A program made the position numbers and the translations under genes. The notes beneath the pieces were generated by a model. It did no database searches. It saw only the letters and a program-made list of their open reading frames with translations, and was not told the origin of the DNA. From contig JAUNLW010000003.1 of the NCBI GenBank assembly GCA_030532065.1, positions 1 to 64,000 on the forward strand: 64,000 bases of DNA, read 5' to 3'. Origin of the DNA: Eubacteriales bacterium (GTDB taxonomy: Bacteria; Bacillota; Clostridia; Saccharofermentanales; DTU023). Within the stretch, counting starts at the first letter, position 1. Each line of letters opens with the position of its first letter. This document shows, one piece after another, positions 2,947 to 55,219 of this stretch.

Positions 2947-2972
2947 AATTGTCTCCTTCCTACGGGCAAGAG

Positions 2973-3749
2973 TTACTCAGAGCGGAGCGCCTCAATTACT
3001 TGCAGCAGGCGAGCGGTTAAGTAATCGTGATATTTCTGGCCAAATTCTTTATTGGACTTAGTGGGACATCCAGAGACGCCTTTTGTTTCGGCAACATGCT
3101 TAGCTGCTTCAGAGCAGGCCGTGGGGACATAACATAAGGTGTCCTTAGGATAACCGGGATCAACACTATATAATTCAGTGGCTTTTACAGGATGGTCTTC
3201 CGCTAGTTCCATATGGGTTAACTCAGGATGGAGAACCATCATATGAGAACTCTCAATTTCTTCAGCATGACCGACCGGACCCATGCCTTCGGTTGCTTCA
3301 ATCAGCTCTTTGGACATATAGGCCGGGTCAAAAATCTTGACTTTAACTCCTAACTCGTTCTGAGCCTTTTCAGCTGCTAGCTGCAACCAAATAATATTGA
3401 CGATTCTATGCCCATTGATGAAGATAAATTTATCAACACCATGCGTATGCAGAGATTTCATGACATCGTAGGCCAGACCAATAAGAATCTCCGGACGAAT
3501 GGAAATAGAACCAGGGAGCACCATGTGATGAGGGCAATAACCAAGCCAGAGTGGCGGGCAGACCAGAACATCTGTCTGCTCCAAAGCTGCGTCTGCTAAG
3601 CCGATTGCCACAAAGCTATCTGTTCCTACTGGTAAATGAGGACCATGTTGCTCAATACTGCCCACAGGAATAATGGCAACACCTTTAGAACTTTCAATTG
3701 CCTTTTCGGCCTCTTGCCAGGTCATTTCGTATAAATGCTTGCGTTTCAT
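2973..3749 (-). CDS. Creatininase-family amidohydrolase
   Basis: The 258-residue protein carries the N-terminal family motif PVGSIEQHGPHLPVGTD (about residues 27-43), whose E, H and D ligate the metal pair. It also has GHAEEIESSHM (about residues 176-186), supplying the later His and Glu ligands. The usual NGHGGN motif is changed to NGHRIVN, which may alter substrate preference. Relatives hydrolyse creatinine or formamides, including MftE and FAPy-type deformylases. It is the first gene of the operon with the two membrane proteins, which suggests uptake and hydrolysis of an amide compound. Substrate unknown. Confidence 0.85.
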   Translation of the reverse strand: MKRKHLYEMTWQEAEKAIESSKGVAIIPVGSIEQHGPHLPVGTDSFVAIGLADAALEQTDVLVCPPLWLGYCPHHMVLPGSISIRPEILIGLAYDVMKSLHTHGVDKFIFINGHRIVNIIWLQLAAEKAQNELGVKVKIFDPAYMSKELIEATEGMGPVGHAEEIESSHMMVLHPELTHMELAEDHPVKATELYSVDPGYPKDTLCYVPTACSEAAKHVAETKGVSGCPTKSNKEFGQKYHDYLTARLLQVIEALRSE

Positions 3750-4669: not shown

Positions 4670-5674
4670 ATGAGACACCTAAACCTGGCCAACTTGCCAA
4701 CCCCCATCCGTAAGCTGGATTTGCTTCCAGACCAAGGAGTAAACCTTTGGATAAAACGCGACGACTATAGTGGCGTGGAGTTAAGCGGTAACAAGATTCG
4801 TAAGCTGGAGTTTTCCCTGGCGGAATGCCAGGAACAAGGCTGCGATTATGTGATTACCAGAGGAGCTATCCAGTCTAACCATTGCCGCGCTACGGCTGCG
4901 GCTTGTGCTCAGTTGGGCTTGAAATGCATTCTGGTGCTGAATACAGATAATCCCCCGTCTTTAGACAATATAGAAGGCAATACTTTCTTTGACTTGGCCT
5001 TGGGCGCGGAAGTCTACCTGGTGAAAGATAAAGAGGCGGCTACTAAGCAGATCTCAGAGCTTACTGAGCAGCTGAAGGCTGCAGGCCACAAACCCTATCT
5101 CATTCCGGTAGGAGCGTCCAATGCGGTCGGTTCTAATGGCTATCGCCGCTGCTTAGATGAGATTGTCGAGCAAGAAAAGGAGATGGGCGTAGATTTTGAT
5201 CTCATAGCTTTAGCTGTTGGCTCTGGTGGCACCTATGCCGGCCTGGCTTATGAGAATGTTTACAGGAAGCTGGGCAAGAAGATCCTGGGTTTTGCTGTTT
5301 GTGACTCAACCGAAATCTTTACCCGCGACATTTTGGCAATTCTCGAAGATATGACCAAGCTGGAGCAAAGTAAGTTAAGTTTTGGCGAGGGAGATGTGTG
5401 GATCAATGATGACTATATTGGTCTGGGTTATGCGCTTTCACGAGATGAGGAGCTTGCCTTTATTATGGAAATAGCTGCTAAGACCGGCGTTATCTTGGAT
5501 CCCTGCTACAGCGGCAAAGCTTTTTATGGCTTACACACGGAACTCACGCAAGGTAATCTTTCTGACTATAAAAATGTGCTCTTTATTCATACAGGCGGTT
5601 TGGCCGGTTGGACAGCTGAAGCCAGAAAACGAGCCAGCAAATTTGTGGAGAATCAGTGGCACGATCAAGATTAG
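4670..5674 (+). CDS. D-cysteine desulfhydrase / ACC deaminase-family PLP enzyme
   Basis: The 334-residue fold-type II PLP enzyme has the family signature LSGNKIRKLEF with Lys42 as the predicted Schiff-base lysine, followed by TRGAIQSNHCRATAAA, the typical substrate and phosphate loop of D-cysteine desulfhydrases. A C-terminal TGGLAGW glycine-rich segment completes the family pattern. The likely reaction is breakdown of D-cysteine to pyruvate, sulfide and ammonia; ACC deaminase or D-serine activity cannot be excluded. The start has AGGAGG about 6 bases upstream. It follows the Crp-family regulator in the same orientation and converges on the ABC exporter operon, with no clear terminator in the 23-base gap. 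Confidence 0.85.
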   Translation: MRHLNLANLPTPIRKLDLLPDQGVNLWIKRDDYSGVELSGNKIRKLEFSLAECQEQGCDYVITRGAIQSNHCRATAAACAQLGLKCILVLNTDNPPSLDNIEGNTFFDLALGAEVYLVKDKEAATKQISELTEQLKAAGHKPYLIPVGASNAVGSNGYRRCLDEIVEQEKEMGVDFDLIALAVGSGGTYAGLAYENVYRKLGKKILGFAVCDSTEIFTRDILAILEDMTKLEQSKLSFGEGDVWINDDYIGLGYALSRDEELAFIMEIAAKTGVILDPCYSGKAFYGLHTELTQGNLSDYKNVLFIHTGGLAGWTAEARKRASKFVENQWHDQD

Positions 5675-5697
5675 TGTTGGGCTGTCACTTTTATGAA

Positions 5698-7578
5698 CTA
5701 TTGATAATACGCTGCCTGAGCCTGCCACATCTGCCTGTAAAGGCCATCCTGGTCGACCAGACCGTCATGAGTGCCGCGTTGCACTAACTGACCGTCGTCA
5801 AAGACTAAGATGTCCTCGCAGAAACGGCAGGAGCTCATGCGGTGAGAGATAAAGACCGTGGTCTTGTCTTGGATCATTTCGTTCAAATGTGTGTAGATAT
5901 TGGCTTCGGCCAATGGGTCTAAAGCGGCCGTAGGTTCGTCCAGAATGACGACAGAGCTAGGTTTGTAGATGGCTCTGGCAATCGCGATTTTCTGCTGTTC
6001 GCCTCCGGAATAGCGGGTGCTGGAGTCATGGAAATCAGCTAAAGGCTGCTTCAACTCTTCTGACAGCGATTTAGCTTGCTTAGTTGCCTCAAAACCGGCA
6101 CTGTTAAGCACATTTATGACTCTTTCCTGGTCATAGTCTACGCTACAAGCCACATTCTCTCCTAAAGGGAAAGCGAAAAGCGCGAAGTCCTGGAATACGG
6201 TTGCGAAGAGAGTTAGATACTCTTCGTAATCGTATTTTTTTATGTCAATGCCATTTAAGGTGATCATGCCTTCAGTGGGGTCGTAGAGACGGCATAGCAG
6301 AAGTATCAGTGTTGTTTTGCCGGAACCATTGGGACCAACGATAGCATGCTTGCGCTTCATATCCAAAGTGAAGGAAACGTTCTTTAAAGCCCAATGGGTG
6401 CTGTTCGGATAACGGAAGCTGACATCGTGGAATTCAAATTTAACTTCGTTATCGTGACGCTTCTCAACTGGGATGCTGCCGGTAGCAAGCGTGTTTTCTT
6501 TTTCCATAAATTGGATGACGTCATCAAAGTAGGGCAAGCTTACGCGCAGCATGGTCAATTTTTGACTGATATCACTTATGGCAGCAGTAAGCTGGTTGAA
6601 GCTCTGAGCGTAAGTTACGACTGTGGTCATAAGGATCGCGCCGGCAAAAACTTTCAGCACGATCACAGAGTAAGCCAAGAGGGCTAAGACCAAGCTTACG
6701 ATGCCAAAGTAAGCGCCTTCCATGGCATTGTAATGGAAAGCCTTTTGGAAAAAAACATTACCTTTATAGGCATAGTCAGTTAATTTTTCTCGCAAATAGG
6801 GTAGCATATCGTAGAGCTGGTAGACGGGATAGCGCTTAGGTTTACCACCGATTTCGCTGATAACATAGTTTAAATCTTGCTCCACCTTGGCGTGAGCGGT
6901 GAGATATTTGCGTCTGCCAGTCTGAGTTTTCTTCATGCCGTATTGCTGGAAGGCAAGACTCAGGATAATAACGAGGATAGTGATCAAGGAAGCCCAAACT
7001 GGCTCAGCTAAGAAAACCACACCGCCGTTGATCTTAGGTGAGTTGACAGCACCAACCGGGCTGAGCAGCATCTTTAAAGTGAGAGCAGAGGCGAAAATAA
7101 TGCTCACAATGCTTTGTAAGATGGTAAAGATTCGGCGGATTGATGAGCCCAAACCACCAATCTCATAACGGAAACTGTTCATGGCTTGGTTGAAGCTCTC
7201 CATCTTGTTCTTGTCCTGAGAGCTGGGATAATCAATATCTAGCAGATGCAGCTTCATATTTCGCATCATCTTATTGTGGATTTGGCTTTCGCCAAGCTCC
7301 AGGCGCCCCAGGATCAGATTGCGCAACATGGCGCAGATAAAAGCTGCTAGCAAGAACCAAACCAGAGTCTTCAGCGCCAAGGGTAGATCACGCGCCGCCA
7401 GAGCGCTCAACAAAGGGGTAAACATGATAATGGGTAGATAAGTAGTGGCCAGAGAGAAGATCAGTTCCAGTGAGGCCAAGGCCAGATAGTCCCGATCGTG
7501 GGCTTTAACCTGACTAAAGATCCATTTGATGACGGCAAGGGAATGCTTGGTATCTGTTTTTTGCTTTGATTTAGTCAT
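5698..7578 (-). CDS. ABC exporter half-transporter (membrane + ATPase)
   Basis: The 626-residue fused half-transporter has an N-terminal six-helix membrane domain (about residues 1-340) and a C-terminal nucleotide-binding domain with Walker A GPNGSGKTT, signature YSGGEQQK, Walker B VVILDEPTAALD and an H-loop in TTVFISHR. There is no C39 peptidase domain. It is encoded 12 bases after a second half-transporter gene, so the two probably form a heterodimeric exporter. Location downstream of a LytTR/GHKL two-component system suggests peptide or lipid-active compound export or resistance. Substrate unknown. Confidence 0.88.
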   Translation of the reverse strand: MTKSKQKTDTKHSLAVIKWIFSQVKAHDRDYLALASLELIFSLATTYLPIIMFTPLLSALAARDLPLALKTLVWFLLAAFICAMLRNLILGRLELGESQIHNKMMRNMKLHLLDIDYPSSQDKNKMESFNQAMNSFRYEIGGLGSSIRRIFTILQSIVSIIFASALTLKMLLSPVGAVNSPKINGGVVFLAEPVWASLITILVIILSLAFQQYGMKKTQTGRRKYLTAHAKVEQDLNYVISEIGGKPKRYPVYQLYDMLPYLREKLTDYAYKGNVFFQKAFHYNAMEGAYFGIVSLVLALLAYSVIVLKVFAGAILMTTVVTYAQSFNQLTAAISDISQKLTMLRVSLPYFDDVIQFMEKENTLATGSIPVEKRHDNEVKFEFHDVSFRYPNSTHWALKNVSFTLDMKRKHAIVGPNGSGKTTLILLLCRLYDPTEGMITLNGIDIKKYDYEEYLTLFATVFQDFALFAFPLGENVACSVDYDQERVINVLNSAGFEATKQAKSLSEELKQPLADFHDSSTRYSGGEQQKIAIARAIYKPSSVVILDEPTAALDPLAEANIYTHLNEMIQDKTTVFISHRMSSCRFCEDILVFDDGQLVQRGTHDGLVDQDGLYRQMWQAQAAYYQ

Positions 7579-44314: not shown

Positions 44315-46933
44315 ATGGCCTATTATGCGCGACCAAATGAAGATGGTAGTTGCTATCAACCACTAGCAGAACACATTCTTCAAACCGCACAGCTGGCGAG
44401 GTCCAGCGCTGAGTCGATTGGTTTAGGTATGCTCCTATTTGTATGCGGCTTGCTCCATGATTTGGGAAAATACCTGGATGAGTACCAGCGGTATATTCGA
44501 GAAGTCGGAGCTGCACTAGCAAAAGGAATTATTCCTCCACCAGCTAGAGTAGATCACGGCGTTTACGGTGCCCTTTATATCTACATATTTTGTGAAAAAT
44601 TGCTGGAATCTTCTGAAGCCTCTACTTGTACAATTAACGGTAAAGAAATATCAAAAACAGTCATTAAGCGTGCCAGAGACCTGATTACCATGTGTATCTG
44701 CTACCATCATGGTTCACTACAAGATTTCATACCGGTAGGGCGTAATGAAGAACCTGTTTTGCTAAAACGCTTGAGAAAGCTAGAGTCAACTTTGGCTGAC
44801 GAAAATAAATCTAACTGGGAACAAGTTCAAAGTAGATTTTTCAATGAAGTCTGTTCGGAGGATCGACTGCAATCCTATCTTTTCCAGGCAATCTTTGAAC
44901 TAGATACTCTTAATTCTCACATTAATGAGCAAGCCTTCGTTTGTCATCATCCGGAAAACGCAGAAGATAATAGCAATGTATACTTAAAATCTTTACAGAA
45001 CTATGCGTGGCAAATGCTGGTGCGCTATACCTATAGCGCGTTGATTGATGCTGACCGCTGGGATGCATACATTTACCAAACTAACAGTGACGAGGACTAT
45101 AATCACAGCATTGAACAACACCTAGAGTCGTATCTTCATGGCTTATACCATAAACTTGAAGAATTTAACGCGAAAAAACCAACTAGTCCATCTGAAGCAA
45201 AAGTCCAGCAAGTAAGAGCTGAGATAAGTGAAATTTGCTCTAAGGCAGCTAGCAGACATACGGGATTATATGATTTAACGGTGCCGACAGGTGGCGGTAA
45301 AACTTTTGCCAGCCTGCGTTTTGCGTTGGAGCATGCTAAATTTTTGCAGGGTACCGCTGAGGCCAAAGAGCGCATAATCTACGTTTTACCGTATACATCT
45401 ATTATCGAACAAAATGCCCATGACGTTAGAGACGCATTAAAATCCTCAAATGATGAAGTTTTGGAAGTCCACTCTCAAGTGACTTTTCAAGAAGATGGAA
45501 GTAGAGCGAAGCCAGATGAAGCAGATAAAAACACACTGGTTGATGAAACAAGATACAAGCTACTTGCTGAACGCTACAATAGCCCCATTATTTTTATGAC
45601 ACAAGTTTCATTTCTGGAAACTTTGGTAAAGGCACATGGTCAATATGCTCGCCGTTTCAATCACTTAGCAAATAGCATTATTATCTTGGATGAAGCGCAA
45701 ACACTGCCCTTGCATAGTACGTATATAAGCAATGCAGCCATAAACTGTTTAGTGTCATGCTTTAACAGCACCGTGTTGATGTGTACCGCTACTCAACCAC
45801 CGCTAGACCAGGCAATAATTCCTTTACTCTTTTCTGAAAATAAACATATTATTCCTGAATCTAACCTGGAAATAAATCAAGAGTTAAAACGTGTTGAAAT
45901 ATTAGATGTTAGGAAGGACGCAGGCTACAGTTTGGAAAAAGGAGCAGAATGGCTAACAAATAATTTCCTTTCGTCTCAGAGTGTGTTGATTGTTCTCAAC
46001 ACGAAAAAAGGAGTGAAACAATTAGCCGAGCTTTTGAAAGATCAACAGAAAGAATTTGAGATCATCTACTTAACCACTTACTTATGCGCCGCGCATAGAA
46101 AAGAAAAAATAGCCGAAATAAAACGCAAATTGGCGAATGGTGATCGGCTAATGGTAGTCAGTACTACTCTGATTGAGTGCGGTGTAAATTTGAGCTTTGA
46201 GGTTGTGGTGCGCAATTTGGCAGGACTACCCTCGATAGTTCAAAGCTGTGGAAGAGGTAATCGTAATGCGGAAAAAGAGCTAGGATATGGATATATAGTT
46301 TCCTGGAATGAAAACATAAAGAATTTAGCAAATCTGTCAGCGCAACAAACGTCCACCAAAAGTGTGATTAGATCATTACGCAAAGTTACTGATACAAGAA
46401 ACGCTGATCTATTGTCGCCATTTGCTATGCAAGAATATTATCGTAAGTATTTTATTGGAAGTATCAAGAAGAAGATGGCTTATCCTATCAACAACGGTAA
46501 TGCTTATCTTTATGAATATTTAGACTCCAGACAGATCGATTTACTAGAATTTGCTGAAAGATGGCCATTTGATTTGAAAATAGCTTTTAGATTCGTTTCT
46601 GAAAGATACGAAGTTATTGGTAACGGCGGCTCAACTCTAATTGTTCCTTATAAAGAAGGTAAATCCCTACAAGTAGAGCTATTAAATGCTCAAAACCTAC
46701 CCTTATCAGATCGCTATCGACTATTAAGAAAAATACAGCCATATACTGTAAATATGTATATAAACAAGACCCCCAGTATGAATGATGATTCATTTTATAC
46801 CAGGTTATGTAGGGAAGGTTTATATATAGTCCCTGGGTTTAATAACTTATATATCGTAAAGGACGGCTTCTACAATGAAGAATTTGGTGTGAGTGCCACA
46901 GGAATGTTTGATGATGTTTGTATTTTCGAATAA
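44315..46933 (+). CDS. cas3: Cas3 helicase-nuclease, type I-C
   Basis: The 872-residue protein has an N-terminal HD nuclease domain (His20, and GLLHDLGKYLDEYQ with His48 and Asp49, then a further His in DHGVYGALY) and an SF2 helicase with Walker A VPTGGGKT (about residue 323), motif II DEAQ (about 459) and motif VI QSCGRGNRN (about 643). It is recruited by Cascade to unwind and degrade target DNA. GGGGAGG is five bases before the ATG. Unlike many I-C operons, cas3 is cut off from cas5c by a terminator and a 292-base gap that contains an antisense crRNA-like element. Confidence 0.96.
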   Translation: MAYYARPNEDGSCYQPLAEHILQTAQLARSSAESIGLGMLLFVCGLLHDLGKYLDEYQRYIREVGAALAKGIIPPPARVDHGVYGALYIYIFCEKLLESSEASTCTINGKEISKTVIKRARDLITMCICYHHGSLQDFIPVGRNEEPVLLKRLRKLESTLADENKSNWEQVQSRFFNEVCSEDRLQSYLFQAIFELDTLNSHINEQAFVCHHPENAEDNSNVYLKSLQNYAWQMLVRYTYSALIDADRWDAYIYQTNSDEDYNHSIEQHLESYLHGLYHKLEEFNAKKPTSPSEAKVQQVRAEISEICSKAASRHTGLYDLTVPTGGGKTFASLRFALEHAKFLQGTAEAKERIIYVLPYTSIIEQNAHDVRDALKSSNDEVLEVHSQVTFQEDGSRAKPDEADKNTLVDETRYKLLAERYNSPIIFMTQVSFLETLVKAHGQYARRFNHLANSIIILDEAQTLPLHSTYISNAAINCLVSCFNSTVLMCTATQPPLDQAIIPLLFSENKHIIPESNLEINQELKRVEILDVRKDAGYSLEKGAEWLTNNFLSSQSVLIVLNTKKGVKQLAELLKDQQKEFEIIYLTTYLCAAHRKEKIAEIKRKLANGDRLMVVSTTLIECGVNLSFEVVVRNLAGLPSIVQSCGRGNRNAEKELGYGYIVSWNENIKNLANLSAQQTSTKSVIRSLRKVTDTRNADLLSPFAMQEYYRKYFIGSIKKKMAYPINNGNAYLYEYLDSRQIDLLEFAERWPFDLKIAFRFVSERYEVIGNGGSTLIVPYKEGKSLQVELLNAQNLPLSDRYRLLRKIQPYTVNMYINKTPSMNDDSFYTRLCREGLYIVPGFNNLYIVKDGFYNEEFGVSATGMFDDVCIFE

Positions 46934-46956
46934 TAACTATAAAAATGCAAAAAAGA

Positions 46957-46980
46957 GAAAAGCGGCAAAAGCCGCTTTTT
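46957..46980. terminator. Bidirectional terminator downstream of cas3 and of the antisense crRNA-like element
   Basis: AAAAGCGGC-AAAA-GCCGCTTTT is a clean hairpin. On the plus strand it ends cas3 with TTTTT. On the minus strand it is followed by TTTTCTCTTTTTT and ends the pseudo-crRNA transcript. Confidence 0.88.
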
Positions 46981-47041
46981 ACCAAGGAATATAGCTCTAT
47001 ATACAGCACTATATTTCAATCCACATCCGCTGAGCAGATGA
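46957..47041 (-). ncRNA. crRNA-like RNA with degenerate repeat, antisense between cas3 and cas5c (CreA/CreR-like)
   Basis: Read on the minus strand from 47040, CATCTGC-TCA-GCGGATG forms a 7-bp hairpin (one G-T pair) and is directly followed by TGGATTGAAAT. That 11-base string is identical to the last 11 bases of the CRISPR repeats, the expected 5' handle after Cas5c cleavage. The stem bases differ from the array repeat but still pair. After the handle come about 33 bases (47012 to 46980), the size of an array spacer, then an intrinsic terminator in place of a second repeat. An extended -10 (47048-47056) puts the transcript start at the hairpin. The first 15 guide bases match the cas5c promoter except at positions 6 and 12. 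Confidence 0.75.
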
Positions 47042-47047
47042 AACTTA

Positions 47048-47056
47048 ATGATAACA
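47048..47056 (-). promoter_or_regulatory. Extended -10 promoter of the crRNA-like RNA
   Basis: On the minus strand TGTTATCAT (TGN plus TATCAT, one mismatch to TATAAT) lies seven bases before the pseudo-repeat hairpin, so transcription would begin at about 47041. No good -35 is seen. Confidence 0.5.
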
Positions 47057-47129
47057 AAGAGAGGAGTGAGTAGCTAGTTATTTATAAATTTTCTGAATAG
47101 TGTAAGGACTAAAAAGGCAGATCTAACTC

Positions 47130-47158
47130 TTGACATTTTTAGCTATATTATTTACAGT
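47130..47158 (+). promoter_or_regulatory. Promoter of the cas5c-cas8c-cas7-cas4-cas1-cas2 operon, overlapped by a pseudo-protospacer
   Basis: A perfect TTGACA (47130-47135), 17-bp spacing, and TACAGT (47153-47158) give a plausible sigma-A promoter starting near 47165. The minus-strand sequence from 47163 to about 47130, which covers both hexamers, is the partial match to the crRNA-like guide. The PAM position (47166-47164, minus strand) reads TTT. Confidence 0.55.
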
Positions 47159-47225
47159 ACTATAAAGAACTTGATCAACCCGCTACTTAATAAATAGCAA
47201 TAGTCGACTAGAAAGGAGACGCGAA

Positions 47226-47918
47226 TTGAAAAGTTTAAGCTTCCGGGTTTGGGGACGGTACGCTCTTTTCTCTGATCCTCTAACCAGGATCGGTGGTGAG
47301 AAATCGACGTTACAGATACCGACTTATGCGGCTCTGCGTGGGGTTTGCGAAGGAGTCTATTGGAAACCGAGTTTAATAACTGTAATTGAATCAGTGACCT
47401 TGTTGAGCCCAATTCGTACGGAAAGTAAGGGGATTCGTCCTATTAAATACAACGGTGGAAATGATTTGTCTTACTACACGTACCTAAAAAATCCCAATTA
47501 CCTTGTTAGATTCCATTATGAATTTAACCAACAAAGGCCAGAACTAAAGAACGATTGGAACATGAATAAACATCTAGCTATTTTTGAACGAAGCCTCAAG
47601 AAAGGAGGAAGGAGAGACATTTTTCTGGGCACTAGAGAGTGTCAAGCGTATGTGGAAACGGCAGATGAGAATTTAACTCCATACTATCAAGGAGAGATGG
47701 ACTTTGACCTCATGTATCACTCCATTAGTTACGCTGACGAAAATTCTGACCAGATTATGAGAGTAAATTTTTGGAGACCTCATATGCAAGATGGGTTAAT
47801 AGTTTATTGCAGACCTGAAGAATGTGAAGTTAGACGAGACATCCGTCAGATACCAAGGCGTACCTTTACTATAGGTGAGAATATGAAGGCAGTAGAGCAA
47901 GAGGAGGGTGACCTATGA
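47226..47918 (+). CDS. cas5c: Cas5c (Cas5d), Cascade subunit and crRNA-processing endoribonuclease
   Basis: The 230-residue type I-C Cas5 starts at a TTG with AAAGGAG upstream. The N-terminal strand block (KSLSFRVWGRYALFSDPL) is the Cas5 RAMP fold, and YWKP near residue 40 and KGIRPIKYNGG contain conserved Tyr and Lys residues of the processing site. In I-C systems Cas5c replaces Cas6 and cuts the repeat below its hairpin, leaving an 11-nt 5' handle. The gene overlaps cas8c by four bases. Confidence 0.94.
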   Translation: MKSLSFRVWGRYALFSDPLTRIGGEKSTLQIPTYAALRGVCEGVYWKPSLITVIESVTLLSPIRTESKGIRPIKYNGGNDLSYYTYLKNPNYLVRFHYEFNQQRPELKNDWNMNKHLAIFERSLKKGGRRDIFLGTRECQAYVETADENLTPYYQGEMDFDLMYHSISYADENSDQIMRVNFWRPHMQDGLIVYCRPEECEVRRDIRQIPRRTFTIGENMKAVEQEEGDL

Positions 47919-49918
47919 TATGGTTAAATCGCTTGGCTCAAAGTCATGATCTTATGAGCTCTATGGATAGCCTTACGTTTCTTGACCAACGTCCCGTTCC
48001 TGTTGCTCATGCAACCCAAAATGCAAACCTGGAGATCCAACTGGATTCAGATGGTGATTTTTTGGCCGCTAGAGTTCTAAAAAACCCGACAAAAAAAGAA
48101 GTAGATGCTGCTCGAAAAAATAACCAAACCTTACTTAAGGAACAGGTAACTATGATACCGGTAACGGAAGCTTCTATTTCGCGTACCAGCGGTCTGTCTC
48201 CTCATCCTTTGCATGACAAATTGATGTATGTAGCTGGTGATTACCGGCTTTACGGTGGTAATAGGTCTGGATATGAAGATTATATGCAGTTACTAAAGAG
48301 CTGGTGTGATTTTGATCCGGGAAACACCGTCATCAATTTGGTCTACCGGTATGTCAGTAAAGGTACGATGATTGAGGATCTGATCGATGACGGACTTATT
48401 TTCCAAGATGGTGGGACTGTAATACAAAAATGGCAAACAGAGTTAGGACCAAAACCACCACTATACGCCAGCGTAAATGGGAATGTTCTTGATGCTTTCG
48501 TAAGGTTTACTGTAGAGAGTGATAATGGCAATGTGATCCTGCCATGGGAAGATCCTGCCACCATTAATTCTTATATTTCTTTTGATGAGTCAAGACAGGA
48601 AAGCGTAGGGTTTGACTATGTAACAGGACAACAAAAAACTATAGCAAAAACTCATCCACAATATGTACGCTATGCTGGAGATAGAGCAAAACTAATATCT
48701 TCTAACGATACTCAAGGCTTTACGTTTAGAGGTCGTTTTGTAGATTCGAAAGAGGCTGCGCAAGTATCATATGAAATCTCACAAAAGGCCCACAATGCGC
48801 TGAAATTTCTAATCCAGAGACAGGGCCATAATGTTGGTGATCGTGTGTTCCTTATTTCTGGCTCTAGTGGCTGTCCTTTCCCGGATCCTACTGCAGATTC
48901 AAATGCGTTTAACGAGGCCGCTTCTGATGATTTAGGCAATATTAAAGAAGATACTGTAGCTACTTATAATTTTGCTTTGGATTTGGCAAACGAATTAACG
49001 GCCGCTTTAAAAGGCCTAAAGCATAAGTTTGATTCAGAAAAGAGCATCTTTGTGATGATCTTAGATGCTCCTGGACCAGGCCGACTATCCATTGTCTATT
49101 ACCGCGACTTCACTGGTACCGACAAAGATCAATTTTTCAAGAATGTAGAAGCTTGGCATAAAAAGCTATCTTGGCAACAGTCTCGCTTTAGCACAAACGG
49201 TAAGGGTGTAGTTCATTTTGTTGGAGCACCTTCCTTACAGGAAATTATTCTCGCGGCCTACGGTGTTGATCGTAGTACAGATCAAAAAGGCAGTTACTTA
49301 GAACTGGATAGTAAGTTCAGTGCAATGGTAATGACGCAACTTTTTCCACTCGTTATAGAAGGCTCTGACAGGCTACCTGATACTTTAGTCAGGCAAGCCT
49401 TTACTAACGCATGTTACCCACAAAAATATTCCACAAATAATTGGAACAAAATCCGTACCACAGCCTGCAGCCTAATAAAGGCTTATCGCAACCAGAAATA
49501 TCAAGAAAATTGGAGGTATATCGTGGACATTAACTCTAGTGACTTAACCTATAACATAGGAAGATTGCTTGCAGTGATGCAGCAAATTGAAGAAAGAGCT
49601 CTATGGATATCTAATAATGAGAAACCTCGCGCAACGAGTGCGATGCGTTACTTTACCAAAGTGATGGAGCATCCATCAGCAGCTTTCGCTCTCCTTGCCT
49701 CAAGTTTGGTGCCCTATAGATCAACTTTAGATAAAGCTGGGAATGCAGGTGCAGATTTATATGCCATGGAACAGCAAATAAGTAGTTTGATCGATCCGCA
49801 AGAATTTGCCAAAATTCGTCACCTGGATGGACGTTTCTTGCTGGGATATGATGCTCAACTATTTCACATCTACGAAGAAAATAAGCGGCGTAAAGCAGAG
49901 AAAAAGATCAAAGAGTAA
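47915..49918 (+). CDS. cas8c: Cas8c (Csd1), Cascade large subunit
   Basis: The 667-residue I-C large subunit recognises the PAM and, through an internal start, commonly also yields a small subunit (Cas11c) from its C-terminal part. The C-terminal region from about residue 545 (LTYNIGRLLAVMQQIEERAL) is the typical helical Csd1 tail. Translation is coupled to cas5c through an ATGA overlap. A methionine near residue 590 could mark such an internal start, but I see no decisive binding site. Confidence 0.93.
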   Translation: MIWLNRLAQSHDLMSSMDSLTFLDQRPVPVAHATQNANLEIQLDSDGDFLAARVLKNPTKKEVDAARKNNQTLLKEQVTMIPVTEASISRTSGLSPHPLHDKLMYVAGDYRLYGGNRSGYEDYMQLLKSWCDFDPGNTVINLVYRYVSKGTMIEDLIDDGLIFQDGGTVIQKWQTELGPKPPLYASVNGNVLDAFVRFTVESDNGNVILPWEDPATINSYISFDESRQESVGFDYVTGQQKTIAKTHPQYVRYAGDRAKLISSNDTQGFTFRGRFVDSKEAAQVSYEISQKAHNALKFLIQRQGHNVGDRVFLISGSSGCPFPDPTADSNAFNEAASDDLGNIKEDTVATYNFALDLANELTAALKGLKHKFDSEKSIFVMILDAPGPGRLSIVYYRDFTGTDKDQFFKNVEAWHKKLSWQQSRFSTNGKGVVHFVGAPSLQEIILAAYGVDRSTDQKGSYLELDSKFSAMVMTQLFPLVIEGSDRLPDTLVRQAFTNACYPQKYSTNNWNKIRTTACSLIKAYRNQKYQENWRYIVDINSSDLTYNIGRLLAVMQQIEERALWISNNEKPRATSAMRYFTKVMEHPSAAFALLASSLVPYRSTLDKAGNAGADLYAMEQQISSLIDPQEFAKIRHLDGRFLLGYDAQLFHIYEENKRRKAEKKIKE

Positions 49919-50001
49919 TCTAAACCCTCATAAACAGCAAACTTAAAGCAGTAATAACTATGGCGATACAGTATCGTCTATCAAATAAAAAGGAGAAAGA
50001 A

Positions 50002-50877
50002 ATGACTACTTTACAGAATAAAATTGATTTTGTCGGCTTGATTGATGTTAACCACGCTAACCCCAACGGCGATCCGCTAAGTGGCAATCGCCCTCGCATT
50101 ACCAGTGACTTCTTAGGGGAAATCTCGGACGTGTGTCTCAAACGAAAGATTCGTAATCGTTGGTTAGATTTAGAGCAGAATATTTTGGTACAGTCTGATG
50201 ATTACAAGAAAGACAATTTCAAGAGCATTAAAGATCGGGTAGCAGGTCAAGAAGCTCTGAAGGATTTCGAGAAAAAACTGGATGAAGATGAATTTTACAA
50301 GCTTGCCTGTGCAACTTGGTTGGATGTGCGTTCCTTTGGGCAAGTTTTTGCCTTCGGTAAAAGCGGTGATAACAGCAAAGGTGTTTCTATCGCAGTTCGA
50401 GGACCAGTAACAATTCAATCAGCCTTTTCTGTAGATCCGGTAGAACTTGAGACTTTACAAATCACGAAGAGCGTAAATAATGAAACCAATGTAAAGGGTG
50501 GAAAGAGCTCAGACACAATGGGGTTGAAGCATAGAGTAAAATATGGCCTCTATGTCCTCAAAGGATCAATAAATGTACAATTAGCGGAGTTGACTGGCTT
50601 TTCCGCGCAAGATGCTGACATGCTCAAAAAAGCTTTATCCCAATTATTTGCTAATGATGCGTCTTCAGCAAGACCTGAAGGCAGTATGGATCTGAAACGT
50701 CTTTATTGGTTTGAGCACAATTGTAAATTGGGACAATATTCTCCCGCGCAAGTTCATAGCAGTATAGTGATAAGCCACAAAGAGGGAATTGAAGTACCAA
50801 CTTGTTTTGAGGACTATGATATCAATATAAATCCACTGCCTGGCCTTGAACCGGAAATCGTTGAGCAATACTGTTAA
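50002..50877 (+). CDS. cas7: Cas7c (Csd2), Cascade backbone subunit
   Basis: The roughly 291-residue protein begins TTLQNKIDFVGLIDVNHANPNGDPLSGNRPR, the highly conserved Csd2 N-terminus (positions 2 onward; key residues N, P, N, G, D). It polymerises along the crRNA; the thumb kinks every sixth base. I use the ATG at 50002 with AAGGAG eight bases upstream; the in-frame ATG at 49960 would add 14 residues without a good binding site. Confidence 0.95.
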   Translation: MTTLQNKIDFVGLIDVNHANPNGDPLSGNRPRITSDFLGEISDVCLKRKIRNRWLDLEQNILVQSDDYKKDNFKSIKDRVAGQEALKDFEKKLDEDEFYKLACATWLDVRSFGQVFAFGKSGDNSKGVSIAVRGPVTIQSAFSVDPVELETLQITKSVNNETNVKGGKSSDTMGLKHRVKYGLYVLKGSINVQLAELTGFSAQDADMLKKALSQLFANDASSARPEGSMDLKRLYWFEHNCKLGQYSPAQVHSSIVISHKEGIEVPTCFEDYDININPLPGLEPEIVEQYC

Positions 50878-50900
50878 TTAGCAAAACACCAAAGCAAAAT

Positions 50901-51578
50901 ATGACCTGTTATAGCAACAATGAATATCTGCCACTATCGCATATCCAGCATTACGTCTTTTGTAAAAGGCAATTTACGCTGATCGCTATAGAACAATCTT
51001 GGGTCGAAAACTTTTTGACCCAAGATGGCAGATGGCTGCACGAAAACGTGCATAATGGTTTAGCTATTGAGTCTCGCGGCAATCACTTGCAGTGTCGTGG
51101 CTTGCGTGTGCAATCGAAAAGACTGGGCCTTTATGGCGTTTGTGACATGGTTGAATTTGAAAAGACCGATGACGCAAATCCCAGAGGAGTTAAGCTCTGG
51201 GGCTTTAAGGGAAATTATATTCCATCTATTGTGGAATATAAGAGAGGAAAACCCAAGCAAGGCCTAGAAGATATCGCTCAGCTGGTAGCGCAAAGTATGG
51301 CCTTGGAAGAAATGCTGAATTGCTCAATTAATGAAGCCTATTTATACTATGGCGCAACTCGGCATCGCTTACCGGTTGAATTAACTGAGGAGCTAAAAGA
51401 GCAAATAGTGATAATAAGTGCTGAAATGCATGAGCTGGTAGAAAAGGGCTATAGGCCAAAGGCAGTCTGCAGCCCTAAATGTCACGCTTGTTCTCTATAT
51501 GAAGTGTGCCTCCCGGATGTAGACCAACACAAAACCGTAGATCAATATATTAGTGAGATGACCGATTTGAGCGACTGA
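50901..51578 (+). CDS. cas4: Cas4 exonuclease of the adaptation module, type I-C
   Basis: The 225-residue RecB-like nuclease has the N-terminal Cys of HYVFCKRQF, a catalytic block with EYKRGKPKQG (Glu and Lys of the PD-(D/E)xK core) and the C-terminal Fe-S cysteines in CSPKCHACSLYEVC. Cas4 trims prespacers and sets PAM-correct orientation with Cas1-Cas2. It lies between cas7 and cas1 as usual in I-C. Confidence 0.95.
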   Translation: MTCYSNNEYLPLSHIQHYVFCKRQFTLIAIEQSWVENFLTQDGRWLHENVHNGLAIESRGNHLQCRGLRVQSKRLGLYGVCDMVEFEKTDDANPRGVKLWGFKGNYIPSIVEYKRGKPKQGLEDIAQLVAQSMALEEMLNCSINEAYLYYGATRHRLPVELTEELKEQIVIISAEMHELVEKGYRPKAVCSPKCHACSLYEVCLPDVDQHKTVDQYISEMTDLSD

Positions 51579-51589
51579 GGGAAACCTAT

Positions 51590-52624
51590 ATGAGAAAATT
51601 GCTAAATACTCTGTATGTTCAACATCCAAACTATTATTTATCTCTAGAGCAAGAAGCAGTAGTCATTAGTAAGGATAGAGTGACTATGGCGAAGTTCCCT
51701 TTATTGAATTTTGAGAGCATAGTAACTTCATCTCAGGTTTCAATTAGTCCCTATTTACTTGAGGCTTGTATGGAGAGGGGCATAAGCGTTAGCTATCTGG
51801 ATCGTAATGGAAAATTCCTTGCCAGAGTGAGTGGGAAAAATATTGGCAATGTTTTACTTAGGAAGAGTCAGTATAGGTACTCTGATGATAAAACTGTCAG
51901 CAATCAAATCGCGAAATATATGATTCTGGGCAAAACTTACAATCAGCGTTGGTTGCTGGACCGTTATTGCCGTGATCATCCACTTTCTATCGACCTTGAC
52001 TCTGTAAAAAAATGTTGCGGTAATTTGCAGGCTGCCTATCCTCGTATAAGAGAATGTGCTGATTTGGACATATTGCGTGGTATAGAGGGAGAGCTGGCAC
52101 AGCAGTATTTTGGCGTGTTTGATTCTTTAATTCTAAAAAATAACGATTTTTTTGCTTTTAAAAAAAGAACTCGAAGGCCGCCTTTAGATCCAGTTAATTC
52201 TGTAATGTCCTATCTTTACACAATTTTGTATCACGAATCGGCCAGCGCCTTATCTTGTGTAGGCTTAGATCCCTACGTAGGATTTTTGCATCGTGATAGA
52301 TCAGGCAGGATGAGCTTGGCCTTAGACCTAATGGAAGAATTGCGCGCGCCATTGGTTGATAGATTGACGCTTAGCCTCATAAATCGTGGACAGTTACAAG
52401 CAAAACATTTTGAAAAGCAAGCAGCGGGAGCGGTTTTAATAACTGATATGGGTCGCAAAATCATAATAGAAGCTTGGCAGCAGAGAAAACAAGAACTTGT
52501 TATGCATCCATTTCTTGAGAATAAGATTGAATGGGGTACAGTGCTGTATGCTCAGGCTCTACTTTTGGCGCGTTATATACGTGGTGATTTAGACGATTAC
52601 CCTCCAATTTTATACAAGAATTAA
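51590..52624 (+). CDS. cas1: Cas1 integrase, type I-C
   Basis: The 344-residue Cas1 has an N-terminal beta domain and a C-terminal helical catalytic domain. Conserved features include the Glu in LRGIEGELAQQYF, PLDPVNSVMSYLYTILYHE, and the His and Asp of VGLDPYVGFLHRDRSGRMSLALDLMEELR. It integrates new spacers at the leader-repeat junction of the array at 53113. Confidence 0.96.
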   Translation: MRKLLNTLYVQHPNYYLSLEQEAVVISKDRVTMAKFPLLNFESIVTSSQVSISPYLLEACMERGISVSYLDRNGKFLARVSGKNIGNVLLRKSQYRYSDDKTVSNQIAKYMILGKTYNQRWLLDRYCRDHPLSIDLDSVKKCCGNLQAAYPRIRECADLDILRGIEGELAQQYFGVFDSLILKNNDFFAFKKRTRRPPLDPVNSVMSYLYTILYHESASALSCVGLDPYVGFLHRDRSGRMSLALDLMEELRAPLVDRLTLSLINRGQLQAKHFEKQAAGAVLITDMGRKIIIEAWQQRKQELVMHPFLENKIEWGTVLYAQALLLARYIRGDLDDYPPILYKN

Positions 52625-52627
52625 ATA

Positions 52628-52921
52628 ATGTACATTATAGTGTGTTGCGATGTAAAAACGGAGTCTGCTGCTGGTCGTAAACGTTTACGACGAGTAGCCA
52701 AGGCTTGTGAAGCTTGTGGTCAACGTGTGCAAAATTCTATCTTTGAATGCCAGCTAGACTCTGTACAAAAAAGAGCATTGGTAGGGAAGTTGTTAAAAAT
52801 TATTGACCAAGACGAAGACAGTTTAAGGATATATAATCTAGGGAAAAATTATCGACAGAAAATTGAACATTGGGGAACGAAAAATGTGCCTGATTTAAGT
52901 AAAGATACTATCATTTTCTAA
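52628..52921 (+). CDS. cas2: Cas2, type I-C
   Basis: The 97-residue ferredoxin-like fold protein begins MYIIVCCDVKTESAAGRKRL with the conserved Asp8 and has the segment VQNSIFECQLD. It forms the Cas1-Cas2 integration complex. The ATG follows cas1 by three bases. It is the last cas gene; the leader starts directly after. Confidence 0.96.
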   Translation: MYIIVCCDVKTESAAGRKRLRRVAKACEACGQRVQNSIFECQLDSVQKRALVGKLLKIIDQDEDSLRIYNLGKNYRQKIEHWGTKNVPDLSKDTIIF

Positions 52922-53112
52922 TTAACAAACAGCTAGATCGTAGTGTGAAGTACAAGCTCACAGAAAAAGCAGGTGTCACTCACACCACATTAAATGTGAT
53001 TTTTGAATTAAAAAACAGGGTATTTTAGAATCACAGTTCATCTGATAGAATGAATTTATACTAGCGGCACAAAGATACTGCTTTGATTTAAAAATTTCTA
53101 GTAGCTTTTGAC
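52922..53112 (+). promoter_or_regulatory. CRISPR leader with array promoter
   Basis: This 191-base A+T-rich segment lies between cas2 and the first repeat. It contains TTGAAT (53003-53008), 17 bp, TAGAAT (53026-53031), a good promoter reading into the array. GATAGAATGAATTTAT at 53044 and AAAGATA at 53071 recur with one mismatch and almost the same spacing near 55632-55666. Confidence 0.75.
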
Positions 53113-55152
53113 GTCGCACCCCTCGTGGGTGCGTGGATTGAAATCATACTATCTAATCTCTCCTTATATACAATTTGTCGCACCCCTCGTGGGTGCGTGG
53201 ATTGAAATACGAAAATTAAACGAAAGTTGAAGGGTACAAGAGTCGCACCCCTCGTGGGTGCGTGGATTGAAATAGCCGTGCATGGAAGGAAAAACCAGCA
53301 GAAGCGTCGCACCCCTCGTGGGTGCGTGGATTGAAATTATATAGTGCCTAAAATTGACTGTAAAGTTACGTCGCACCCCTCGTGGGTGCGTGGATTGAAA
53401 TCAACTGCATCAAAAACCGTTAAAGGTGGCGTCGTCGCACCCCTCGTGGGTGCGTGGATTGAAATATAGAAAGCATTTTCCTCCGACGTAAGCATACGTC
53501 GCACCCCTCGTGGGTGCGTGGATTGAAATTGCTGGGCAGGCGCTTCGCCCTGTCTCCCATTGTCGCACCCCTCGTGGGTGCGTGGATTGAAATAACTGTC
53601 GGAAGCCTATCGGAAGTATTTACCCGTCGCACCCCTCGTGGGTGCGTGGATTGAAATTCCCAACGTTTACGCCCATGTTTTGCTCCTGGGTCGCACCCCT
53701 CGTGGGTGCGTGGATTGAAATTCCAGCTTGAGCTCCCAGCGGTCATAAGCCCCGAGTCGCACCCCTCGTGGGTGCGTGGATTGAAATTCAACAGCGCACT
53801 GTAGCCCTGTAGCAGTTGCGTCGCACCCCTCGTGGGTGCGTGGATTGAAATACAGACTTGACCTTGCCTGCTTCCTCTAGGGCAGCTGTCGCACCCCTCG
53901 TGGGTGCGTGGATTGAAATGCCTAAGCTCGCCATTGACGCCATGCTTAACTGTCGCACCCCTCGTGGGTGCGTGGATTGAAATATGGATGTTGTAAATCA
54001 CGGAAAGATCTTTAGCGTCGCACCCCTCGTGGCTGCGTGGATTGAAATGGACTAGCCAAGGCGTAACATCAGCTAACGCCCTGTCGCACCCCTCGTGGGT
54101 GCGTGGATTGAAATGACGATGGGCCGCAGGCGGGACAGCTTGTAACGTCGCACCCCTCGTGGGTGCGTGGATTGAAATCTTTCCGGGAGCTGCACCTCCC
54201 TTACTTGTTGAGTCGCACCCCTCGTGGGTGCGTGGATTGAAATGTTTAACGATCCAAGTACGCTGAAAGATACCGGTCGCACCCCTCGTGGGTGCGTGGA
54301 TTGAAATTTTATGAGTTCGGGTAATATTTTCTTGCCCAGGTCGCACCCCTCGTGGGTGCGTGGATTGAAATGCGATTTGTTCTAGGTACGGATCTAGCGC
54401 TGTACCGTCGCACCCCTCGTGGGTGCGTGGATTGAAATTCGGTATAGCTCAGGATCATCTGATAGATCCCGGTCGCACCCCTCGTGGGTGCGTGGATTGA
54501 AATAAATCGGCGTTGAGTTGCACTCGAGGGCATATAGCGTCGCACCCCTCGTGGGTGCGTGGATTGAAATAATATACAAAATCCTTAAAAAGCGTTGAAA
54601 ACGTCGCACCCCTCGTGGGTGCGTGGATTGAAATACTGTAAATTTGTGCAAATTAGGCTTCCAACTATGTCGCACCCCTCGTGGGTGCGTGGATTGAAAT
54701 AATCTAGACGTCCAGGCCGCACTCGCTAATGCTGTCGCACCCCTCGTGGGTGCGTGGATTGAAATATTAGAGAGACCTCGCTTTGGGAGTTTGACCGCGT
54801 CGCACCCCTCGTGGGTGCGTGGATTGAAATGCACAAACACACCGTAAAAGATGTATCGTTTTGTCGCACCCCTCGTGGGTGCGTGGATTGAAATATGGCT
54901 TTCGTCCATGCAGCCACACAAGACGAGGTCGCACCCCTAGTGGGTGCGTGGATTGAAATATCTGCCCCTGATAGACCTTCTTAAGGGCACAAGTCGCACC
55001 CCTCGTGGGTGCGTGGATTGAAATTGTAAAAAAGACCGCAGACCACATGGATAAGCGTCGTACCCCTCGTGGGTTCGTGGATTGAAATGAAGATGGTAGC
55101 CTTGTTAATCAAGCACTTTCGTCGCACCCCTCGTGGGTGCGTGGATTGAAAT
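53113..55152 (+). CRISPR. Type I-C CRISPR array, 32 repeats and 31 spacers
   Basis: The 32-base repeat begins GTCGCACCCCTCG and ends GGGTGCGTGGATTGAAAT, a standard I-C repeat with a GCACCC/GGGTGC hairpin. Repeats start at 53113, 53177, 53242, 53306, 53370, 53434, 53498, 53562, 53626, 53690, 53756, 53820, 53888, 53952, 54017, 54083, 54147, 54212, 54276, 54340, 54407, 54472, 54539, 54603, 54669, 54734, 54799, 54863, 54928, 54993, 55057 and 55121. Spacers are 32 to 36 bases and none look alike. Variants are at 54017 (one stem change), 54928 (loop change) and 55057 (two changes); the last repeat at 55121 is intact. Orientation, with cas2 and leader at the left, agrees with the ATTGAAAT end. Confidence 0.98.
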
Positions 55153-55219
55153 TTAGGTGGTCTAGCGAGAGCAAGGCTTGCGATTGCTCCAGTGCGGATT
55201 ACCCAGATTGAGGACTATT

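Follow-up and report, generated by a model that had tools for sequence, protein, structure and literature searches.

The gap between cas3 and cas5c of a type I-C CRISPR-Cas locus contains an antisense element made up of one degenerate repeat, a guide and an intrinsic terminator, and the 5' end of the guide matches the promoter of the Cascade operon that follows. From sequence comparison we consider it very likely (probability about 0.9) that the element encodes a type I-C CreR-like RNA and that Cascade represses its own operon through it. The same reading had been put forward in the preliminary description of this DNA, and it gains support from pairing that is conserved among I-C loci and from mismatches that fall almost only at guide positions 6 and 12.

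The locus lies in the window, by which we mean the whole stretch of 64,000 nucleotides that was analyzed, and is complete, with the gene order cas3-5c-8c-7c-4-1-2 followed by an array, based on NCBIfam profile matches. Cas8c, Cas5c, Cas7c, and the I-C Cas1 exceed their NCBIfam cut-offs, which assigns the locus to type I-C. Its features are as follows.

44315..46933, plus strand: cas3 (TIGR01587, TIGR01596)
46958..46979, minus strand: intrinsic terminator capping the guide; terminator-like on the plus strand too, after cas3
46980..47012, minus strand: guide, 33 nt (nt 1-15 are 47012-46998)
47013..47023, minus strand: intact 11-nt 5' handle TGGATTGAAAT, identical to that of the array repeat
47024..47040, minus strand: hairpin of the degenerate repeat, re-paired over 7 bp (CATCTGC-TCA-GCGGATG)
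47048..47053, minus strand: putative -10 (TATCAT) of the antisense RNA, upstream of the hairpin and 24 nt before the handle
47130..47158, plus strand: sigma70-like promoter of the cas5c operon (TTGACA at 47130-47135, 17 nt, TACAGT at 47153-47158)
47149..47163, minus strand: target of guide nt 1-15, with PAM TTT (plus-strand AAA at 47164-47166)
47226..47918, plus strand: cas5c, the crRNA-processing Cascade subunit, heading the targeted operon (TIGR01876, E 1e-62)
47915..49918, plus strand: cas8c (TIGR01863, above cut-off)
49960..50877, plus strand: cas7c (TIGR02589)
50901..52921, plus strand: cas4, cas1c, and cas2 (profile matches)
53113..55024, plus strand: CRISPR array of ~30 repeats of 32 nt, repeat GTCGCACCCCTCGTGGGTGCGTGGATTGAAAT

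The degenerate repeat with its re-paired hairpin, the intact handle, the 33-nt guide, and the terminator, all of which had been proposed beforehand for the minus strand, were each located in the 292-nt gap between cas3 and cas5c. A repeat-like sequence thus stands in the cas locus outside the array, as is expected of CreR. The hairpin (MFE -7.2, z -2.9) closes flush with the handle, and the terminator, read from 46979 to 46958, is the sole one detected across a 400-nt region. T-runs flank the terminator hairpin on both strands (46958-46985), so that one structure could terminate both transcripts, that of cas3 (plus strand) and the antisense RNA (minus strand). The putative antisense promoter is weak on paper and has no good -35. 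The guide region is partly palindromic and able to fold on itself, which might hinder loading. A search of 46500-55200 against Rfam gave no match, even at E 1. When the window array was compared with phage genomes, the only matches were to other arrays; one record from human faeces named "Bacteriophage sp." (MT836291.1, positions 5282-7224) has 35 matches to the window array; either a phage carries this type I-C array or the contig is bacterial.

The minus strand of the target, 47163-47149 (ATAGTACTGTAAATA), differs from the start of the guide (ATAGTGCTGTATATA) only at nt 6 and 12, exactly as the preliminary description had noted; pairing ends at nt 15 and the remainder of the guide is unmatched. 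With nt 6 and 12 left free, the 1.6-Mb genome has this pattern at exactly two places, the guide itself and the promoter 151 nt away, and a reversed control pattern does not occur in the genome. If one mismatch is allowed, three matches are seen across the 64 kb of the window, where 0.04 would be expected, and none of 20,000 local Markov-1 shuffles reached the block match. The match between guide and promoter is not a product of chance. A footprint of 34 nt, the length given to the target earlier, would reach 47130, where TTGACA begins, and take in the -10-like TACAGT. The guide is partly complementary to a cas promoter next to a PAM, as in CreR. That PAM is indeed TTT, which had been considered a weakness of the proposal; the objection is softened because the type I-C system of N. 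lactamica uses both TTT and TTC (PMC10865793) and because TTT also recurs among the surveyed pairs described below, although TTT may be the weaker PAM of the two.

We surveyed 102 type I-C loci for solitary handles outside arrays, the arrays having been masked beforehand. The loci came from named public genomes and from members of the window's family, order and class. The query was TGGATTGAAA[TC] with at most one mismatch, and a handle passed if, within 400 nt, guide nt 1-5 and 7-11 matched a site flanked by TTC or TTT. Nineteen of the 68 solitary handles passed, from 18 loci including the window; as the survey is a sample of related genomes, these counts are of loci and not of independent origins. 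The Cas8c proteins sampled from the surveyed loci matched TIGR01863 above its cut-off. When the guide register was moved by 2-15 nt in either direction no handle passed, and a shift of -1 gave one. Pairs of free positions other than 6 and 12 gave four to five, and 38 of 40 shuffled handles gave none; the other two, with 19 and 5 matches, are taken to lie near the true handle sequence. Loosening the handle, the core and the PAM gained few loci and raised the register-shift background.

The strict test was passed by 17 of the 69 I-C loci from the order and class sample (window included), but by only one of 33 named or viral contigs, a Lachnospiraceae MAG (L011). No strict match was found in plasmid-borne I-C loci of Paenibacillus, Monoglobus, Lysinibacillus, Lacticaseibacillus, Nitratidesulfovibrio, Zymomonas, or Thermus. 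In the remainder of the phylum there was one convincing case among 80 loci (L198), whose mismatches are at 6 and 12 only. That locus, from another class, has the same device at 2700-2850, with a long terminator hairpin, handle TGGATTGAAGC, and a TTC PAM. Two further candidates were rejected. In L212 the match is a perfect short duplication with no hairpin, and in L180 the guide pairs with a site directly before its own repeat; the L180 site (2960-3010) is TTC-flanked and lies over a TATACT box, possibly reflecting a guide RNA that silences itself. Four relatives of the same family (L054, L057, L058, and L060) have no element, even with lax settings, and two genus mates examined do not have cas5c.

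The guides differ nearly everywhere among the 18 loci and the pairing is kept, the reverse of the missing conservation that had been set in advance as grounds to reject autorepression. An identical guide was found only in two related species (L100 and L101), whose targets differ within nt 1-15 at nt 12 alone. In L137 the array handle is TGGGTTGAAAT and the solitary handle has changed likewise. Eighteen of the 19 elements are antisense to the operon, and the gene adjoining the target is cas3, cas5c or, in L055, a cas2 that heads the operon. Where the gap between cas3 and cas5 exceeds 100 nt, an element is present in 11 of 15 loci (one through a relaxed match). The PAM is TTC in 16 of the 19 pairs and TTT in three, and allowing other PAMs under the same handle rule gave no gain. 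In 15 of 20 elements the guide is succeeded by a terminator-like hairpin and T-run that exceed the 95% level of shuffled sequence. Of the same 20, 70% have a TATAAT-like hexamer (score of at least 5.5) 18-31 nt ahead of the handle, compared to 20% in shuffled sequence. The repeat hairpin is not rebuilt everywhere, several elements having none in a 21-nt fold.

Guide and target could instead be a protein operator present twice, with one copy following the handle by coincidence, and the partly palindromic guide region would suit such a site. However, the match begins at the handle boundary in all loci, with the PAM in register, and the motif varies from locus to locus, which makes this explanation scarcely credible.

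Other arrangements were also seen. L135 (5877-8405) has two elements, each with its own guide, one for the cas3 and one for the cas5c promoter. In L140 (3588), L146 (3584), L148 (8917), L149 (3582), and L151 (3413) a sense-strand mini-array of two repeats stands upstream of cas3, with handle TGAGTTGAAAT and a guide of ~20 nt that matches a CTC-flanked site ~18 nt before cas3, its mismatches being mostly at nt 6 or 12. In two I-C loci of Desulfobacterota (L021:100-220 and L028:820-940) the stretch immediately preceding cas3 holds a shared mini-array, whose spacer begins with a conserved ATTAACAATAATTA and whose second repeat is degenerate; no target matching this spacer was found within either locus.

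Because the first filter had left positions 6 and 12 free, the search was repeated with any two mismatches allowed in nt 1-15, in 190 loci after addition of a second phylum sample and plasmids. This position-neutral filter returned 21 pairs. Of their 31 mismatches in nt 1-15, 28 are at nt 6 (15) or nt 12 (13), and positions 4, 9, and 10 have one each. The mismatch frequencies at position 6 (15 of 18 pairs) and position 12 (13 of 18) are near chance expectation, so that these two bases look unconstrained. Positions 16 and 17, which are outside all filters, are matched in 12 of 18 pairs and in 10 of 18, respectively; position 18 matches in five of 18, the chance level, and from position 19 on there is noise. 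In type I complexes every sixth base of the guide is flipped out (PMC11127173, PMC5904413), and the simplest account of the six-base rhythm would be that these guides are read by Cascade.

The same data bear on whether the element might be the remnant of a mini-array in decay, or a promoter-derived self-targeting spacer, with no function at present. A degenerate repeat, a missing second repeat, and pairing confined to the 5' end speak for this. Yet the differing guides of 18 loci keep nt 1-5, 7-11, and 13-15 and not 6 and 12, while the handle is intact, the hairpin re-paired, and the terminators kept, and we regard a relic as very unlikely.

Autorepression through Cascade would proceed as follows, the transcription, processing, loading, repression, and derepression of the element all being steps that we infer. 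A short antisense RNA would start at the degenerate repeat, run through the guide, and end at the terminator. Cas5c would cleave it at the foot of the hairpin, leaving the 11-nt handle, and the product would take the place of a crRNA in Cascade. At the cas5c promoter, Cascade would then recognize the site flanked by TTT and open an R-loop of ~15 nt, in which paired blocks of 5 bp are separated by the flipped-out bases 6 and 12. This R-loop would mask the -10 region and the spacer and so block transcription of cas5c-8c-7c-4-1-2, the pairing being too short to license cutting by Cas3. The level of Cascade would thereby be self-limited, and the block could be eased by competing crRNAs from the array or by an anti-CRISPR that removes Cascade; relief by both routes is part of the CreR model (PMC12737573).

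Several of these steps have precedents. I-C Cascade of N. lactamica lowers transcription when aimed at the -10 on the coding strand (PMC10865793). In the I-E system of E. coli, seed pairing plus a PAM suffice for Cascade binding, interference requires far longer pairing, and binding without interference has been observed; in addition, the RNA from the last repeat to the terminator is a likely noncanonical crRNA (PMC5904413). By analogy with this other subtype, a terminator-capped guide and binding without cutting are plausible for I-C. Local expression was unaffected in E. coli, which counts against repression, although the sites there had not been selected for promoters (PMC5904413).

The element might instead give rise to an antisense or decoy RNA, acting either by titrating Cas5c or Cas7 in the manner of Racr or by transcriptional interference with read-through from cas3. 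Solitary repeats are able to inhibit Cascade, in I-C included (RacrIC1, PMC10651486), and a terminator readable on both strands is compatible with interference. Neither route, however, predicts a promoter-matching guide with a PAM and a periodicity at nt 6 and 12, and we hold both to be highly improbable. Racr resembles the element in being a solitary CRISPR repeat expressed as a small RNA, with a known I-C example, but differs from it in residing on mobile elements and in disturbing Cascade assembly without a promoter-matching guide (PMC10651486). The window element is inside a complete cas locus, not on a phage or plasmid, and its guide matches, whereas Racr needs none.

Autorepression by CreR has been reported for types I-B, I-E, and V-A (PMC13131331), and for type I and V-A broadly (PMC12737573). 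The element shares with CreR a crRNA-like RNA beside cas genes, partial complementarity to a cas promoter, and (as we read it) autorepression by the effector (PMC13131331, PMC12737573). It differs from CreR in belonging to subtype I-C, in being nearly always antisense to the operon, in pairing over ~15-17 nt in 5-nt blocks, and in having one degenerate repeat with an intrinsic terminator in place of the second. The usual mini-CRISPR form of CreR, two repeats flanking a pseudo-spacer, is absent from the window, where the terminator takes the place of one; since CreTA modules with a single ectopic repeat are described (PMC9458426), we count the two-repeat form as usual and not as defining. CreA of CreTA likewise combines a degenerate repeat with a pseudo-spacer that partly matches a Cascade-repressed promoter, but mostly has two repeats (PMC9458426). 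The window element has one and targets the cas operon, with no toxin seen beside it. Across the genome the seed is matched in full only at the cas5c promoter, and there is no plus-strand ORF of 80 aa in the gap. The natural single-guide RNA of type II-A, in a 2021 report by Workman, reportedly pairs over a short stretch and so makes the effector repress its own promoter. That RNA is based on Cas9 and tracrRNA and has no repeat-derived handle, unlike the I-C element.

No CreR case in I-C was found in the literature searched, which did not extend to the 2023 survey by Shmakov. The abstract of that survey reportedly mentions crRNA-like elements in many type I systems, and I-C may therefore be among them. 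With its one repeat, its terminator cap and its antisense setting, the I-C form appears to be a new variety of CreR. We lean, with modest conviction, toward an undescribed I-C class that stands antisense before the Cascade genes in about one in four of the loci of this subtype sampled from the order and class to which the window belongs, is built of a single degenerate repeat and a terminator, pairs in blocks over ~15-17 nt, and has guides that record in their evolution the flip-out of every sixth base.

If this is true, RNA-guided autorepression would reach one of the commonest Cascade subtypes, in which crRNAs are processed by Cas5c. The signature that emerges from the survey (handle, guide in 5-nt blocks, PAM, terminator) offers an easy means to find such regulators. 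The mismatch pattern would document from nature that Cascade leaves bases 6 and 12 unread in living cells, and would hint at the length of pairing that permits binding without self-destruction, which matters for gene silencing with I-C systems and for the response of cells to anti-CRISPRs.
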